A program made the translations under genes and the position numbers. This document shows positions 1 through 6,669 of a DNA stretch of 6,669 nucleotides, piece by piece (the first letter of the stretch is position 1; every line of letters starts with the position of its first letter). Source of the stretch: Candidatus Desantisiibacteriota bacterium (lineage in GTDB: Bacteria; JACRDZ01); NCBI GenBank assembly GCA_016209155.1, contig JACQWU010000026.1, positions 1-6,669 on the forward strand, written 5' to 3'. The notes beneath the pieces were generated by a model that saw only the letters and a program-made list of their open reading frames with translations, had not been told where the DNA came from and searched no databases.

Positions 1-407
1 AAATTATATATTTTGGTTGATACTTCAATATAGTTTTTTTTCTCATTTATTAACTCATCAAATAAAGTTTCATCTTCTTTATCAACTATAGATTTTTTTT
101 GCTTATTCAGGTTTTCATCCACAATTTTGGATAACACTATAATCCCCTCCTGTAATTCTTTAATTTCTTTAAAATCACTGGCTAAAAACATTTTATGCAG
201 GTTTATTCTAACTCCCTGTAAAAAAACACCTATATTAATTAAATTCCCCATTGGTTTAGTTTTTTTTTCAAAAAGAAATGTATCAGCATTATTAAGAGTT
301 TTTAAATTTGTAATCCCAATAAAACCAACGATTCCTACAATTATCGCAACAATAATAAATCCGCTAATAAGTTTTGTCCTGATTTTTATATTATCTAAAT
401 TCAACAT
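1..407 (-). CDS. Methyl-accepting chemotaxis protein, N-terminal part (3' end cut by window edge)
   Basis: This is the start of a transmembrane chemoreceptor, which senses a ligand and controls CheA through CheW. Reading from ATG at 407 gives 135 codons that stay open to the left edge. The N-terminus is typical of receptors: a short basic lead (NIKIRTKLISGF, residues 6-17), then one hydrophobic segment at about 14-33 rich in Ile, Val and Gly, then a helical, charged region. That layout resembles the four-helix-bundle (4HB_MCP) ligand-binding class. The second membrane segment, HAMP domain, methylation helices and signalling tip would lie outside the window, so the receptor call rests on the N-terminus and on the position 29 bases after cheW. 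A GGAGG at 416-420, 8 bases upstream, supports the start. Ligand unknown. A sensor kinase with the same kind of N-terminus is possible but less likely here. Confidence 0.82.
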   Translation of the reverse strand, partial: MLNLDNIKIRTKLISGFIIVAIIVGIVGFIGITNLKTLNNADTFLFEKKTKPMGNLINIGVFLQGVRINLHKMFLASDFKEIKELQEGIIVLSKIVDENLNKQKKSIVDKEDETLFDELINEKKNYIEVSTKIYN

Positions 408-436: not shown

Positions 437-979
437 TTATTTTTGATTAATTTGATTTGCAGGTTTTTCTGCCTGCTTTATATCAATCACATCTTTTGTT
501 GAAATAACTTTGTTTATATCCAGTAGAATTTTTACTTTATCTCCGGACCTGCCTATTCCCAGAATATAATCAGTGTCAACTCTTTCACCAAAGCATGGAG
601 TATCTTCAATATCATTATTATCTATGTTTGCTACTTCAGAGACTTTATCAACTATTATCCCTAATTCAATATCATTTGCTTTTACCACAATTATGCATGT
701 TTTTTCAGTATGCGCTGCTTCCTGCATAGACAATTTTAAACGTAGATCCAGTATGGGAATAATTTTCCCGCGCAAATTAATAAATCCTTTAATAAATTTT
801 GGAACTTTTGGAATAGGTGTTATTACTAAAAATCCGATTATCTCGCGAACTTTTAATATTTCTATTCCATATTCTTCATCTCCTAAATAGAAAGTTAAAT
901 ATTTACCTCCTTTTTTTACTGTTTTGTTTTCATTTGATATATTTGTATCTTTTACTGATTCACAAGCGGCAATCGTCAT
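437..979 (-). CDS. cheW: Chemotaxis coupling protein CheW
   Basis: CheW is the cytoplasmic scaffold that links receptor tips to the P5 domain of CheA in the signalling array. The 180-residue product has a polar N-terminal tail of about 24 residues, then one CheW domain starting at KYLTFYLGDEEYGIEI (26-41). It has the family core motif INLRGKIIPILDLR (67-80), with the conserved Arg at 70, followed by the IIVVKAND and LGIIVDKVSEV strands. The last 20 or so residues are a polar Lys/Gln-rich tail. The length is slightly above the usual 150-170 because of the two tails. I chose ATG 979 over the in-frame ATG at 988, because the AGGAG at 989-993 touches the 988 ATG but sits 9 bases from 979. Stop is TAA. 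It follows cheB after an AT-rich gap and precedes the receptor gene by 29 bases, so cheW and the receptor are probably co-transcribed. Confidence 0.95.
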   Translation of the reverse strand: MTIAACESVKDTNISNENKTVKKGGKYLTFYLGDEEYGIEILKVREIIGFLVITPIPKVPKFIKGFINLRGKIIPILDLRLKLSMQEAAHTEKTCIIVVKANDIELGIIVDKVSEVANIDNNDIEDTPCFGERVDTDYILGIGRSGDKVKILLDINKVISTKDVIDIKQAEKPANQINQK

Positions 980-1144
980 TTTAATCATCTCCTTTTTAAA
1001 TATAGACAGAGAATTAAGGTATTTATAATATAATTAGGGTTATTTTTTTTAAAATCTTTAATTTTTTTAATAAAAAATATCAATTATTATGGTAATTACA
1101 AATATCCTTCAGTCATTTCACCCTAAACACCTGAATATCAACCG
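980..1144 (-). other. AT-rich intergenic region between cheB and cheW
   Basis: This is the largest gap in the cluster. It is almost pure A/T with long A and T runs and holds no credible gene; the only short frame is a six-codon ATG frame near 1116. There is no GC-rich hairpin followed by T's, so I see no intrinsic terminator. A TTGATA (minus strand, about 1079-1084) and TATTAT/TATAAA-like strings (about 1022-1032) could be promoter elements for cheW and the receptor, but no pair has both good matches and good spacing. In DNA this AT-rich such strings arise by chance. Confidence 0.4.
989..993 (-). promoter_or_regulatory. Ribosome binding site of cheW (decides the start)
   Basis: On the minus strand this reads AGGAG, preceded by a run of A. 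It directly abuts the upstream ATG (986-988), which is too close for initiation, and lies 9 bases before the ATG at 977-979. The second ATG is therefore the likely start. Confidence 0.7.
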
Positions 1145-1291
<147 letters not shown>

Positions 1292-2179
1292 TTAACGCAT
1301 TGCGAATAACCCCTTTGCTCCATCAGCACCCATACCGGTCAAAATCACACCAATGGCATTTCTACCCGCATTCATTGCAACAGAATGAAATAAAACATCA
1401 ACACTTGGTCTTTGATAATGTACTTGAGGACCTTTTTTTATTTTAACAAAATATTTTGAACCGCTTTCCTCAAGCAGCATATGATAATTTCCGGGAGCGA
1501 TCAGCGCAACTCCAGGTGCAACAATATCATTATCTTTTGCTTCTCTTACTTCCATCCTGGAGAGGCTATTTAACCTTTCAGCAAAACTTGTGGTAAAATA
1601 TTCCGGCATATGCTGAACAATAACTGTACCCGGCGCATCAGCAGGCAGTTCCTTTAATAAAGATTCAATAGCCACTGTACCGCCTGTCGAAGCGCCTATT
1701 GCAAGTATTTTATGTGTTGCATTTATTGCCCGCAAAACAACTTCACCTTTATTTGCTGATGCGATTTCTTCTCTATTATATTTTTTAATGTCCGCAGACG
1801 CTGCATTTCTTATTGCGCGGACAAGAATTCGCGGATCAGATGACACAGAAAATGTCGAACCGGGTTTATGTATAACATCAATTGCTCCCAATTCCAGAGC
1901 TTTTATTGCCGCTTCACTATTTTTTGGCGTAAGAGAACTTACGATAACTACAGGTATTGGATAAAATTTCATGAGTTTAGCCAGAAAGGTAAGTCCATCC
2001 ATTCTCGGCATTTCAATATCTAAAGTTACAACATCAGGTTTTAGATTAATTATTTTATCGCGGGCAACATATGGATCAACTGCCGTATCTATGACCTTTA
2101 TATCCGGATATGAAGATAATTGTTCTGTAAGAATCTTTCTTACAATTGCCGAGTCATCGACGATTAGTACCTTTATCAT
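1292..2179 (-). CDS. cheB: Protein-glutamate methylesterase CheB, cut short by an in-frame stop
   Basis: CheB removes methyl groups from receptor glutamates (and deamidates glutamines) and is activated by phosphate from CheA. This frame gives 295 residues. The receiver domain (about 1-120) has the acidic pair D8/D9, phospho-acceptor D54, the SS pair 81-82 and K105. A linker of about 35 residues leads to the CheB catalytic domain, with S164 in GASTGG, H190 in QHMP and D286 in GMGADGA. These match the Salmonella CheB triad numbering. The frame stops with TAA at 1292-1294, straight after LFAMR, about 48 residues before the family's usual end, and those residues are encoded in the same frame downstream. 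The triad is kept but the last strand and helix are lost, so the short product is probably unstable or inactive unless the stop is read through or is a sequence error. Start ATG has AAGGA at 2188-2192, and cheX ends 14 bases upstream. Confidence 0.93.
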   Translation of the reverse strand: MIKVLIVDDSAIVRKILTEQLSSYPDIKVIDTAVDPYVARDKIINLKPDVVTLDIEMPRMDGLTFLAKLMKFYPIPVVIVSSLTPKNSEAAIKALELGAIDVIHKPGSTFSVSSDPRILVRAIRNAASADIKKYNREEIASANKGEVVLRAINATHKILAIGASTGGTVAIESLLKELPADAPGTVIVQHMPEYFTTSFAERLNSLSRMEVREAKDNDIVAPGVALIAPGNYHMLLEESGSKYFVKIKKGPQVHYQRPSVDVLFHSVAMNAGRNAIGVILTGMGADGAKGLFAMR

Positions 2180-2193
2180 AATTAAATTCCTTC

Positions 2194-2664
2194 TTAAAAA
2201 AATAATTTATTATTTTTTTCAACATATAATTTAGTTTTAACAAAACCATTTTCAAATCCAATATCCATCTCAGCAATTATTTTTTTGCTATCCGCAATAT
2301 CTTCATTATTTATTATTTTTTTTGGCGGATCTATATAAAAAATTTCTTTTGTATCTGCAATTTCCGGGAGCAGATTTCCGCAAATTAAATTTACTATTTC
2401 ACCCAATGCATCTATTTTTTGATCCTCAGATGAATTAATTTCCTCCCCAAGCATATTTGCCGCTAATGTTGAAAGAAAATTGCCGCCGTAAACACTTAAT
2501 ATTAGTCTACCGCAAAATATACCTTTAAAATCCACACTCATGGTTGCCTCAGGACATGTATCTTTATATTTTTCAATGCTCTCCTCATCAATAAATATAT
2601 ATCCTGCCTCTTCAAAAATCTTTACCACTATTTTGTGAATTGTATTCTCGAATTCCGTCTTCAT
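2194..2664 (-). CDS. cheX: CheX-type chemotaxis phosphatase
   Basis: This is a cytoplasmic protein of the CheC/CheX/FliY group, which hydrolyses the aspartyl phosphate on CheY and so ends the signal. The 156-residue product has a single copy of the catalytic ExxN signature, E89 and N92 in ALGEIVNLICGN (86-97). It is preceded by a strand-rich section (FKGIFCGRLILSVYG, 46-60) and the ANMLGEE helix (69-75). One ExxN copy and no flagellar-switch domain fit CheX better than CheC or FliY, which usually have two copies or extra domains. ATG 2664 lies inside the end of cheY; GGAG at 2671-2674, 6 bases upstream, supports it. It overlaps cheY by 53 bases and ends 14 bases before cheB, so translation with its target CheY is probably coupled. 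Confidence 0.85.
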   Translation of the reverse strand: MKTEFENTIHKIVVKIFEEAGYIFIDEESIEKYKDTCPEATMSVDFKGIFCGRLILSVYGGNFLSTLAANMLGEEINSSEDQKIDALGEIVNLICGNLLPEIADTKEIFYIDPPKKIINNEDIADSKKIIAEMDIGFENGFVKTKLYVEKNNKLFF

Positions 2665-3040
2665 TTTTAGCTCCAGTCATTGATATTATTATTTCCTTCA
2701 AAAATTCTGGTGTAAATGGTTTATGTACAAATTTAGCATCAAGTTTTCTCAGCATTTCAATGCGCAATTCACTCCCTTCAGTTGAAACAATAACAACAGG
2801 TAAATTTTTCAAGAATTCTTCTTTCCTTAGTTCTTTCAGCATTTCCTCGCCATTCATAACAGGCATATTTAAATCAACAAGCGCAAGATCAATCCATGTT
2901 TTTTTAAGAATATTCAAACCTTCAAGCCCATTACCTGCTTCATGGATCTCACCTATAGAAACACCGCTTAAATGCAATACTTTTATTACCATTTTACGGG
3001 TAATTGCGCTATCATCTACTACAAGAATATTCAAAGCCAT
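2612..3040 (-). CDS. cheY: Chemotaxis response regulator CheY (single receiver domain)
   Basis: This is a stand-alone receiver domain that takes phosphate from CheA and is expected to bind the flagellar motor switch. The 142-residue product has the acidic pair D9/D10 (VVDDSAITRK), phospho-acceptor D56 in LVDLNMP, switch T87 in VST, and K107 in HKPF. The usual aromatic switch position, Tyr106 in E. coli, appears to be F104. There is no output domain. The receiver fold ends near residue 124; the last 18 or so residues are a polar tail encoded in the stretch shared with cheX. Start ATG has GGAG at 3048-3051, 7 bases upstream; stop is TGA, unlike its TAA-ended neighbours. Its place between cheD and a CheX phosphatase supports a chemotaxis role over a general receiver. 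Other CheY copies may exist elsewhere. Confidence 0.92.
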   Translation of the reverse strand: MALNILVVDDSAITRKMVIKVLHLSGVSIGEIHEAGNGLEGLNILKKTWIDLALVDLNMPVMNGEEMLKELRKEEFLKNLPVVIVSTEGSELRIEMLRKLDAKFVHKPFTPEFLKEIIISMTGAKNEDGIREYNSQNSGKDF

Positions 3041-3062: not shown

Positions 3063-3545
3063 TTATATCTTCTTAGTTTCCCCGTTAATTTTTAAATATA
3101 CCTCGCCTGTCCCAATTTCCAGAAACATTGTTCTTGAAAGATTTTCTCCAACATCGTATGATTTTAATAATACATTATTTTTCCATAAGAGTTTACGGAG
3201 CATAATAAAATTTCTTTTGCCTATATTGAAAAAATCTTCGTCAGAATTACCGCTTCTGCATGATCCTCCGGCAACTTTAACAATCAACCTTTCTTTTTTA
3301 GCTCCAGCTTTATAAGCGGAAAGAAAAAATTTGGGGACACCGGTATCAACAAACATATATGGATTTTCATTTGCTTTTGCGCTGTCAATTGTTGAAAGCG
3401 GAAGCATAATATGGAGAAGTCCTCCTACATATGCCACCGGATCATATATTGTAATTCCAAGACAGCTTCCAAGCGCATAGGTTACTAAAGTACAATCTTT
3501 ATTCGTTGAAATTTTCATATCGCCTACACCTATTACATCAAGCAA
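3063..3545 (-). CDS. cheD: Chemoreceptor glutamine deamidase CheD (TTG start)
   Basis: CheD deamidates specific receptor glutamines to glutamates, creating methylation sites; in several bacteria it also binds CheC-family phosphatases. The 160-residue product has the full active-site pattern: T22, C28 in YALGSCLGITIYDP and H45 in GGLLHIMLP. These correspond to Thr21, Cys27 and His44 of Thermotoga CheD. Other family motifs are NPYMFVDTGVP (61-71), IGKRN (108-112) and DVGENLSR (131-138). The usual GGA after the KV strand reads GGSC (93-96), a small departure. The start is TTG at 3543-3545, preceded by GAGGTG; the first ATG is codon 10 and would remove the conserved first strand. The gene lies 35 bases after cheA and 22 before cheY. 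CheC is absent here, so CheX is the only phosphatase partner visible. Confidence 0.94.
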   Translation of the reverse strand: MLDVIGVGDMKISTNKDCTLVTYALGSCLGITIYDPVAYVGGLLHIMLPLSTIDSAKANENPYMFVDTGVPKFFLSAYKAGAKKERLIVKVAGGSCRSGNSDEDFFNIGKRNFIMLRKLLWKNNVLLKSYDVGENLSRTMFLEIGTGEVYLKINGETKKI

Positions 3546-3580: not shown

Positions 3581-6500
3581 TTATACAAACTGTAATGTAT
3601 TTTTTGAAAAACCTTCGTCTCTTGCCATATTTCCGATTCCATCAGGATCCAGAATAAGTCCCACACATCCATCAGCAAGTATAGCGGCTCCGGATATCCC
3701 ATCAACTTTACCTATCCCTTCACTAAGTGATTTGGCCACAACCTGCTGTTGTCCCAGTAATTCGTCAACTAAAAGCGCGTAATATCCTTTTTTATCACTC
3801 ATAAGCAAAAGCAGCGCTTTATCAAGGTCATTTACAGCATCAGGTATGTCAAATAACTTATTTAATCTGAATATTGGAACAAATTCATTGCGGATCTTCA
3901 CAATTTCTCCTCTTCCCATTACGCTTGAAACAGAATCAGCATCAGGCCGTAAACTCATAATTATATTAATAGCAGGAATAATAAAACATTCTTTCCCGAC
4001 TTTAATCAACATCCCATCTGTAATCGCAAGTGTAAGCGGAAGATGGATAGAAAAAACAGTTCCTTTACCTTTTTCAGAGGTTACATCTACCTGTCCGCGA
4101 AGGCTGTCTACTCCTTTTTTAACAACATCAAGACCAACTCCCCGCCCTGAGATATCCGTGATTTTATCTGCGGTTGAAAATCCGGGTAAAAATATAAGTT
4201 TAAAGATTTCACTTTCCGATAAATTTTTATTACTCTCTATCAGTCCCTTTTCTATTGCCTTTTTAACAATTTTTTCATGGTCAAGTCCTTTCCCGTCGTC
4301 GCTTATATTTACCACTACTTTACCGCTTAAATTTAAAGCCGAAAGATGAATTGTCCCTGATTCTTTTTTGCCGGATTTTTTACGGCTTTCAGGATCCTCT
4401 ATACCATGATCAACCGCATTCCTGATCAAATGAACAAGTGGGTCGTTCAGCACATCAACCATATTTCGGTCTATCTCAGTACCTTCACCTTCAATAATTA
4501 GATTAACAACTTTGTTGCTTTTTTGAGACAGATCTCTAACAAGACGGTTCATCTTTTGCAGGGTGGATTTAAGAGGCACCATACGAATAGTCATACTGAG
4601 ATCCTGAAGTTCTCTTACAATTTTACCTGTGTGCGCAACTTTTTTTGCAAGCCCGTGATTTACAGCAATTATTTTATCCTGTGAAATCATGGAATGAGCG
4701 ATTACGAGTTCACCTACCATATCAAGAAGTTTATCCATTTTATCGGTGTTTACTTTTACAAATGAACTTACTTCCTCCCCATTTATTTTTTTGAGTTTTC
4801 TTAATGAAGTTGCGACATCCTTCACACTGGCTACATTTGATTTAATAATAACTTTCCCCAGCGGCTCTTTCCCCTGACAGAATGCGGCAAGCTCAATATC
4901 TTCACGGCTTGCTTTCCCATCCGCAACCATAATATCACCTAAACGCAAAGATGTATTTATGGTATCAGATTCGGGTTCTAATTCAGATTCAATTTTTTCC
5001 GGATTGGTTAAAATATCAAGTAGTGCATAATATTCACCCGGAATTATTTTCTCTTCTCCTCCTATGGCATCATGAACAAATTGGATTAAATTCTTAATCA
5101 TATCCAATGAACGCAATGCCAGATCCGCATATTTGCCTGAATAAACAATTTGATGGTCTCTGATTCTGGAAAGAAGAGTCTCAGCATGGTGCGCAAATTC
5201 GTTAATCAATTTAAGACCGAGAAAAGCTGAGGTTCCTTTTATTGTATGGAAAGCTCTGAATACTATATTTAAAGATTCCTGATCCTCAGGATTTGATTCC
5301 AGATTAAGCAAGGCTGCTTCAGAGTTTTCAATATACTCATTGCTTTCATTAATAAATTCTTCCAGAGTACCAATATCAGCATCAGCAGGAAGAGTAAATG
5401 TTTGCTTATTATTTTCGGGAACCGAAAGCTGGGAATTATTTTTTTTGTTTGCAGCGGATTCCACTTTTTGAGATTTTTGATTCGCAATATTATTTGCTTC
5501 AGGTATATTTGTTTTATTTGATTTAGATTTATTATCAGATTCAGATTTAACTTTTTCCGGATTGGTTAATATATCAAAAAGTGTATAATATTCTCCCGGA
5601 ATTATTTTCTCTTCTCCTCCTATAGCATCATGAACAAATTGAATCAAATTCTTAATCATATCCAATGAACGCAATGCCAGATCGGCATATTTGCTTGAAA
5701 AAATAATTTCATGATCTCTGATTCTTGAAAGAAGAGTCTCAGCATGGTGCGCAAATTCGGAAATCTGGGGAAGACCGAGAAAAGCTGAAGTTCCCTTTAT
5801 TGTATGAAAAGCTCGGAATACTATATTCAAAGATTCCTGATCTTCAGGATTTGATTCCAGATTAAGCAAGGCTGTTTCAGAGTTTTCAATATACTCACTG
5901 CATTCATTAATAAATTCCTCTAAAGTAGCTATATCAGCATCAGCAGGAAGAACAAATGTTTGCTTATTATTTTCAGGATCAGAAGACAGGGAATTATTTT
6001 TTTTATTCACATCGGATTTCACAGCATCTTTAGGTTTTTGTTTAATATTATTATCCGGTTCAAGCATTTCCTGAATATCTCCAATTGTTTTTTCAACTTC
6101 ACCTATAATTTCCTGTTTTTTTTCAATTTTTTCATCAATAATTCTTATTATTTTCTGCTTAATATCCGTCAATTTTTTATTTATATCTTCAGAATAAATA
6201 TTACAGGAAATAAGCTGATCAATTGATTTACATAACTTTTGCACACTATCTTTATTATCAGGTTTTAATTGTATCAATAAAAGAGAAATATCATCTATGC
6301 AGAGATTTGAACTTTCTTTTCCCGCTAAGACTGAATTCTCCGTATTTTTTATTTGCATTTCTTTTTCATTACTGCGCAGCAAACCTGCAATAACCCCCTT
6401 TATGCCATCGAGTTCCGATACAGGGACATCCATATTATTTAAAACAGCTATTGAAATATCTAAAATTTTTGAAATATTTTTTATGATTTCTTTTGGAGAT

Positions 6501-6669
6501 TTTGCGCTGTCTTCATAAATTGCTTTCATTGCCTCGAAACATATCTCAAAGTATCCTTTTAAAGATAATTCTGCTTCGAAGACACTGCTGTAACTTTCCT
6601 CAAATTCAGCACCTATCTTTATGATCGCATCTTTATCATTAAAATTCAGCAGTTTTAAATTTTCGTTTA
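3581..6669 (-). CDS. cheA: Chemotaxis histidine kinase CheA with two tandem Hpt domains (5' end outside window)
   Basis: CheA autophosphorylates under receptor/CheW control and passes phosphate to CheY and CheB. Residues are counted from the ATG at 6529. A helical N-terminal region (1-158) of unknown identity ends in a likely coiled coil (115-155). Two Hpt (P1) domains follow, about 199-305 and 385-491, each with FHTIKGTSAFLG; the phospho-acceptors are H242 and H428. Residues 528-582 look like a two-repeat GspE/MshE N-terminal-type domain (LGDIMVADGKASRED and LGKVIIKS). Then come the P3 dimerisation domain (588-645), P4 ATPase (N704 in LIRNAVDHGIE, DDGKG 744-748, LPGFSTA 781-787, GRGVGLD 795-801) and CheW-like P5 (about 837-970). 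I see no P2 CheY/CheB-docking domain. The frame stays open for 46 more codons to the edge with no ATG, GTG or TTG, and ATG 6529 has only a badly spaced GAGG, so the true start is probably outside. At 1028 or more residues it is far longer than E. coli CheA (654). Confidence 0.95.
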   Translation of the reverse strand, partial: NENLKLLNFNDKDAIIKIGAEFEESYSSVFEAELSLKGYFEICFEAMKAIYEDSAKSPKEIIKNISKILDISIAVLNNMDVPVSELDGIKGVIAGLLRSNEKEMQIKNTENSVLAGKESSNLCIDDISLLLIQLKPDNKDSVQKLCKSIDQLISCNIYSEDINKKLTDIKQKIIRIIDEKIEKKQEIIGEVEKTIGDIQEMLEPDNNIKQKPKDAVKSDVNKKNNSLSSDPENNKQTFVLPADADIATLEEFINECSEYIENSETALLNLESNPEDQESLNIVFRAFHTIKGTSAFLGLPQISEFAHHAETLLSRIRDHEIIFSSKYADLALRSLDMIKNLIQFVHDAIGGEEKIIPGEYYTLFDILTNPEKVKSESDNKSKSNKTNIPEANNIANQKSQKVESAANKKNNSQLSVPENNKQTFTLPADADIGTLEEFINESNEYIENSEAALLNLESNPEDQESLNIVFRAFHTIKGTSAFLGLKLINEFAHHAETLLSRIRDHQIVYSGKYADLALRSLDMIKNLIQFVHDAIGGEEKIIPGEYYALLDILTNPEKIESELEPESDTINTSLRLGDIMVADGKASREDIELAAFCQGKEPLGKVIIKSNVASVKDVATSLRKLKKINGEEVSSFVKVNTDKMDKLLDMVGELVIAHSMISQDKIIAVNHGLAKKVAHTGKIVRELQDLSMTIRMVPLKSTLQKMNRLVRDLSQKSNKVVNLIIEGEGTEIDRNMVDVLNDPLVHLIRNAVDHGIEDPESRKKSGKKESGTIHLSALNLSGKVVVNISDDGKGLDHEKIVKKAIEKGLIESNKNLSESEIFKLIFLPGFSTADKITDISGRGVGLDVVKKGVDSLRGQVDVTSEKGKGTVFSIHLPLTLAITDGMLIKVGKECFIIPAINIIMSLRPDADSVSSVMGRGEIVKIRNEFVPIFRLNKLFDIPDAVNDLDKALLLLMSDKKGYYALLVDELLGQQQVVAKSLSEGIGKVDGISGAAILADGCVGLILDPDGIGNMARDEGFSKNTLQFV
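4994..5449 (-). repeat. Tandem duplication inside cheA, copy 2 (second Hpt domain)
   Basis: This encodes residues 361-512, again from NKKNNS to LTNPEK, with phospho-acceptor H428. By eye, DNA identity with copy 1 is close to 90 percent over the best-matched 390 bases. Differences cluster in the lead, around the PQIS/KLIN stretch (254-257 against 440-443) and just after RIRDH. The two copies are separated by a 34-codon Ser/Asn/Lys-rich linker (5450-5551) that is not part of the repeat. Confidence 0.93.
5552..6007 (-). repeat. Tandem duplication inside cheA, copy 1 (first Hpt domain)
   Basis: This encodes residues 175-326, from NKKNNS to LTNPEK. It includes a Lys/Asn-rich lead, the TFVLPADADI strand, the whole Hpt helix bundle with H242, and the PGEYY tail. 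It matches copy 2 at a constant offset of 186 codons (558 bases), with about 17 differing residues out of 152 and no gaps. Confidence 0.93.

Follow-up and report, generated by a model that had tools for sequence, protein, structure and literature searches.

Many CheA kinases carry more than one Hpt (P1) domain: in a survey of 13,673 CheAs, 18% had at least two Hpts, with up to fourteen found (PMC10782961), and the statement of an earlier, sequence-only reading of this DNA that CheAs with several Hpt domains are known is thus borne out. More than 90% of the multi-Hpt CheAs in that survey carry a C-terminal receiver and about 93% belong to the ACF and Tfp classes, while the F4-class CheA has three Hpt domains (PMC10782961). 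The studied multi-Hpt case is ChpA of P. aeruginosa, whose large number of phosphotransfer domains has yet to be explained (PMC12632253). The CheA described here has two Hpts with the phospho-histidine motif, two or more being what defines a multi-Hpt CheA, and does not have the receiver of the Tfp/ACF class.

The window, by which we mean the whole stretch of DNA analysed, is an entire contig of 6,669 bases in a 3.08-Mb draft assembly (352 contigs, about 79% complete). Pfam assignments place cheA, cheD, cheY, cheX, cheB, cheW and the start of a chemoreceptor gene on its minus strand, as follows.

3581 to 6669, minus strand: cheA, 5′-truncated at the contig end (open frame of 1028 codons, with an internal ATG at 6529)
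3063 to 3545, minus strand: cheD (Pfam)
2612 to 3040, minus strand: cheY-like receiver, likely phosphate acceptor (Pfam)
2194 to 2664, minus strand: cheX phosphatase (Pfam)
1292 to 2179, minus strand: cheB, likely phosphate acceptor, shortened by an in-frame TAA (Pfam)
437 to 988, minus strand: cheW (Pfam)
3 to 407, minus strand: start of a chemoreceptor gene (4HB_MCP_1), cut at the contig end (Pfam)

An ordinary chemotaxis cluster with a CheA kinase is part of the best explanation of the locus, and the cluster likely controls flagella in what is an incomplete genome. Flagellin and FliG genes are present, the FliM/N C-domain had no match in the genome at its completeness of about 79%, and the PilT matches were under the family cut-off. 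In cheB, the TAA follows GLFAMR at the 3′ end of the frame, about 50 residues before the profile end, and the conserved C-terminal part continues in the frame past it ([28 protein letters not shown]...); this stop may be a nonsense mutation, a strain variant or a sequence error. The cheY and cheX frames, taken from the first ATG, overlap by 53 nt (window 2612–2664), and the true start of cheX may be further downstream.

The cheA frame runs on without a stop to the contig end, and the alignment of relatives reaches upstream of the ATG at 6529, their start methionine lying about 20 residues before the first residue of the window, indicating that this ATG is internal. The phospho-acceptor histidines, which had been numbered H242 and H428 by counting from this ATG, are therefore H288 and H474 in the truncated frame, so that the earlier numbering is offset by at least 46, and the true cheA numbers are higher than these. 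The CheA core domains P1, P3, P4 and P5 were all detected by Pfam in the one protein, which is laid out as listed below (residues of the truncated frame).

6053 to 6667, minus strand: N-terminal region with two predicted helical bundles, residues 12–106 and 124–202 (model)
5552 to 6007, minus strand: Hpt unit 1, residues 221–372, with H288 (codon 5806–5804), K291, H307 and E310
5450 to 5551, minus strand: 34-codon linker, predicted to be disordered (pLDDT about 36–39, residues 381–420)
4994 to 5449, minus strand: Hpt unit 2, residues 407–558, with H474 (codon 5248–5246), K477, H493 and E496
4793 to 4945, minus strand: MshEN-like helical segment, standing where P2 would be (motif comparison)
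4586 to 4768, minus strand: P3 dimerisation domain (H-kinase_dim), residues 634–694 (Pfam)
4031 to 4444, minus strand: P4 kinase domain (HATPase_c), residues 742–879 (Pfam)
3635 to 4015, minus strand: P5 CheW-like domain, residues 885–1011 (Pfam)

Neither a P2 domain nor Response_reg gave a Pfam match in the 1028-residue frame, and the protein ends after P5, without a C-terminal receiver domain.

The two Hpt units are both in frame in cheA at a spacing of 186 codons, and align without gaps with 135 of 152 amino acids (88.8%) and 411 of 456 bases (90.1%) identical, each containing the HTIKG motif. The central observation of the sequence-only reading, two near-identical 152-residue Hpt units at 4994–6007, was thus reproduced in its coordinates, identities, spacing and motif. 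The Pfam Hpt family (PF01627) matched in two stretches, one per unit, at 101.4 bits against a cut-off of 24.6, and the family-model scores of the two units were alike (139 and 140 bits). In a repeat search across the window, no family other than the Hpt pair (300-nt reference copy, 84%) was longer than 36 nt. When one unit was searched as DNA against the whole assembly, these two places were the only matches, which excludes a genome-wide repeat or mobile element. The duplicated stretch comprises the Hpt domain and a little linker, and the likeness fades within the 34-codon linker; judging from this fading similarity, the duplication may originally have covered the full 558 nt.

The residues H, K, H and E are the active-site set of the CheA P1 domain, and correspond to H45, K48, H64 and E67 in T. 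maritima CheA. This quartet, aligned through the match to the P1 structure 1tqg, is intact in both units and is kept in 96 of the 99 Hpts scored. Substitutions between the units are mostly silent (dN 0.064, dS 0.28; NG86), indicating purifying selection on both. Together, the equal HMM scores and the intact quartet rule out that one copy is degenerate, and both units, as far as their sequences tell, are apparently working.

The predicted structures were examined alongside the sequences. AlphaFold gave two high-confidence Hpt helical bundles with a disordered linker between them, and the Foldseek search with the 640-residue model matched solved CheA P1 structures (1tqg, TMt 0.88, rmsd 1.1), both modelled units having the P1 helical-bundle fold. 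No Pfam family matched the N-terminal region (6053–6667), a region that many relatives share. Its bundles have a predicted CheA P1/Hpt-like fold and zero histidines, and their best match was Salmonella P1 with a Z of 11.0, a value short of what counts as secure among helical bundles. On the strength of the model, these bundles are a possible pseudo-Hpt pair, bringing the tally in this CheA to two Pfam Hpts plus two predicted Hpt-like bundles that lack histidine.

The MshEN c-di-GMP receptor, which has been mentioned in CheA, has two 24-residue RLG...LxxxLxxQ motifs placed 5 residues apart (PMC5013675). In the window segment 4793–4945, which has no Pfam match, the first half-motif keeps RLG...Q and the second is degenerate (Arg to Pro, Gln to Leu) after a spacer of 3, and the two-motif arrangement of MshEN is not present. 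An MshEN-like segment between Hpt and P3 is common to many relatives, with three or four half-motifs in L038 and L118.

To collect relatives, an aligned Hpt-to-P4 region was scanned against the named genomes, and this gave the 80 closest named loci; the same scan with a single protein as the query gave no matches. Many of the 80 are from Desulfobacteraceae, Balneolaceae, Gemmatimonadota, Planctomycetota, Armatimonadota and others, and the great majority have one recognisable Hpt, a homologous one rather than divergent independent Hpts, in keeping with the duplication proposed by the sequence-only reading. Among three other genomes of the same phylum, the search found distant CheAs only and no same-phylum orthologue. 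The two units of the window came out as sisters, with a support of 100, in a tree built from 94 Hpt domains; their tips measure 0.054 and 0.060 and their stem 0.66, and the nearest Hpt outside this protein is 62% identical. Sister units with short tips on a long stem indicate that the duplication, or the last complete homogenisation of the units, falls in the terminal lineage. The duplication would accordingly appear specific to this lineage, unless whole-unit conversion erased an older one; its time and the single-copy ancestor are both inferred from relatives that are only about 60% identical. The term "recent" in the sequence-only reading is therefore appropriate in relative terms, for a lineage-specific duplication with sister units, but not for a fresh copy, as the dS of 0.28 indicates.

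Other members of the subfamily also carry additional Hpts. The CheA of the Nitrospinota MAG CSMAG_3060 (G035; L033/L044, 3-4070), a gene truncated by the contig start, has at least five tandem Hpts. Its units are 156–162 codons long and 48–72% identical, the last two being the closest, and in one Hpt the His, Lys and His of the site are replaced by Tyr, Arg and Asn. Two further genomes, G045 and G322, share one family with two old Hpts each, which match by position (H1–H1 56%, H2–H2 54%, and H1–H2 36–44% within or between proteins), and a deeper group (L035, L036, L038, L118 and L119) has a separate, diverged N-terminal Hpt. Extra Hpts have been gained more than once, independently, in this CheA subfamily. 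The within-protein Hpt identity of 89% in the window is the highest among the proteins read here, followed by 72%.

We favour, with a probability of about 0.82, the reading that a single-Hpt CheA was duplicated in tandem (about 558 nt) in a lineage-specific event and that the copies are largely redundant. Near-identical neighbouring units would also be yielded by an older duplication whose units are kept alike through gene conversion between them, and the two other subfamily lineages with multiple Hpts make old arrays possible. We nevertheless consider this origin unlikely, since the differences are evenly spread over the units with no conversion-tract signal (p 0.57 and 0.24 for clustering), a result that lends no support to patchy gene conversion or to the ongoing conversion suggested earlier. 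Moreover, the Hpts within any one protein of G035, G045 and G322 share 72% amino-acid identity or less, so these genes do not generally keep their units alike by conversion. It is far less probable still that an assembly artefact or strain chimera joined two alleles of a one-Hpt gene, even though the contig is short and comes from a draft of 352 contigs that is incomplete. As many as 45 of the 456 bases differ and no exact shared run exceeds 38 nt, which makes an assembly duplicate of one unit very unlikely and argues that the duplication is real; in addition, a distinct in-frame 34-codon linker lies between the copies, one open frame spans both, and a third, single-unit copy is absent from the assembly. 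A strain chimera in particular is possible in principle yet unlikely.

The two Hpts might instead be specialised, for example with one feeding CheY and the other feeding CheB, both of which are encoded next door. There are 17 amino-acid differences between the units, some of which (PQ/KL and S/N, at +12, +13 and +15) lie where the helix that follows the phospho-histidine begins. However, the differences within the Hpt domain are mostly at columns that vary in the family, and the active-site residues are identical in both units, so that we regard specialisation as quite unlikely.

Under the favoured reading of a lineage-specific tandem duplication, the single Hpt (P1) domain would have been copied on the branch towards this organism, the copied piece probably measuring about 558 nt. 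From general knowledge of CheA, the shared kinase domain of the dimer would phosphorylate either histidine, H288 or H474, and either would act as phosphate donor for one and the same CheY and CheB. The main effect of the extra Hpt would then be a greater amount of phosphorylatable P1 close to P4 and the targets; a largely redundant extra copy is the simplest reading. This CheA may be a clear and fairly young halfway stage towards CheA kinases with several Hpts: its two copies seem active and have hardly diverged, in a subfamily where one Hpt is the rule and a relative has at least five, one with its His lost. As such, it could provide a natural test of the effect of an extra P1 domain before specialisation. 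A more speculative reading, which we hold to be a long shot, is that Hpt copy number is an evolvable dial in this subfamily, and that the near-identical units could still expand or contract through recombination and change the signalling gain. If true, tandem units would be acquired repeatedly (two here, at least five in the Nitrospinota MAG), and the signalling gain could vary between strains or cells.

The single-Hpt CheAs of the subfamily (L042 and L043; Desulfobacteraceae, Balneolaceae) have the same domain order as the window CheA, namely an N-terminal region, an HTIKG Hpt, a linker (MshEN-like in many), P3, P4 and P5, but have one recognisable Hpt whereas the window CheA has two. The CSMAG_3060 CheA, from the same subfamily, has a tandem Hpt array as the window CheA does, although its array of at least five units, including the one with Tyr for His, arose independently of the duplication in the window. 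ChpA and other Tfp/ACF CheAs are similar to the window CheA in having several Hpts N-terminal to the kinase core (PMC10782961, PMC12632253), and some Hpt-like bundles without histidine occur in both, those of the window being predicted. The multi-Hpt CheAs of the Tfp/ACF classes mostly carry a C-terminal receiver, whereas the window CheA has none and its Hpts are near-identical. Taken together, multi-Hpt CheA is an already known arrangement, and the window CheA is unusual only in the absence of a receiver and in the near-identity of its two Hpt copies.
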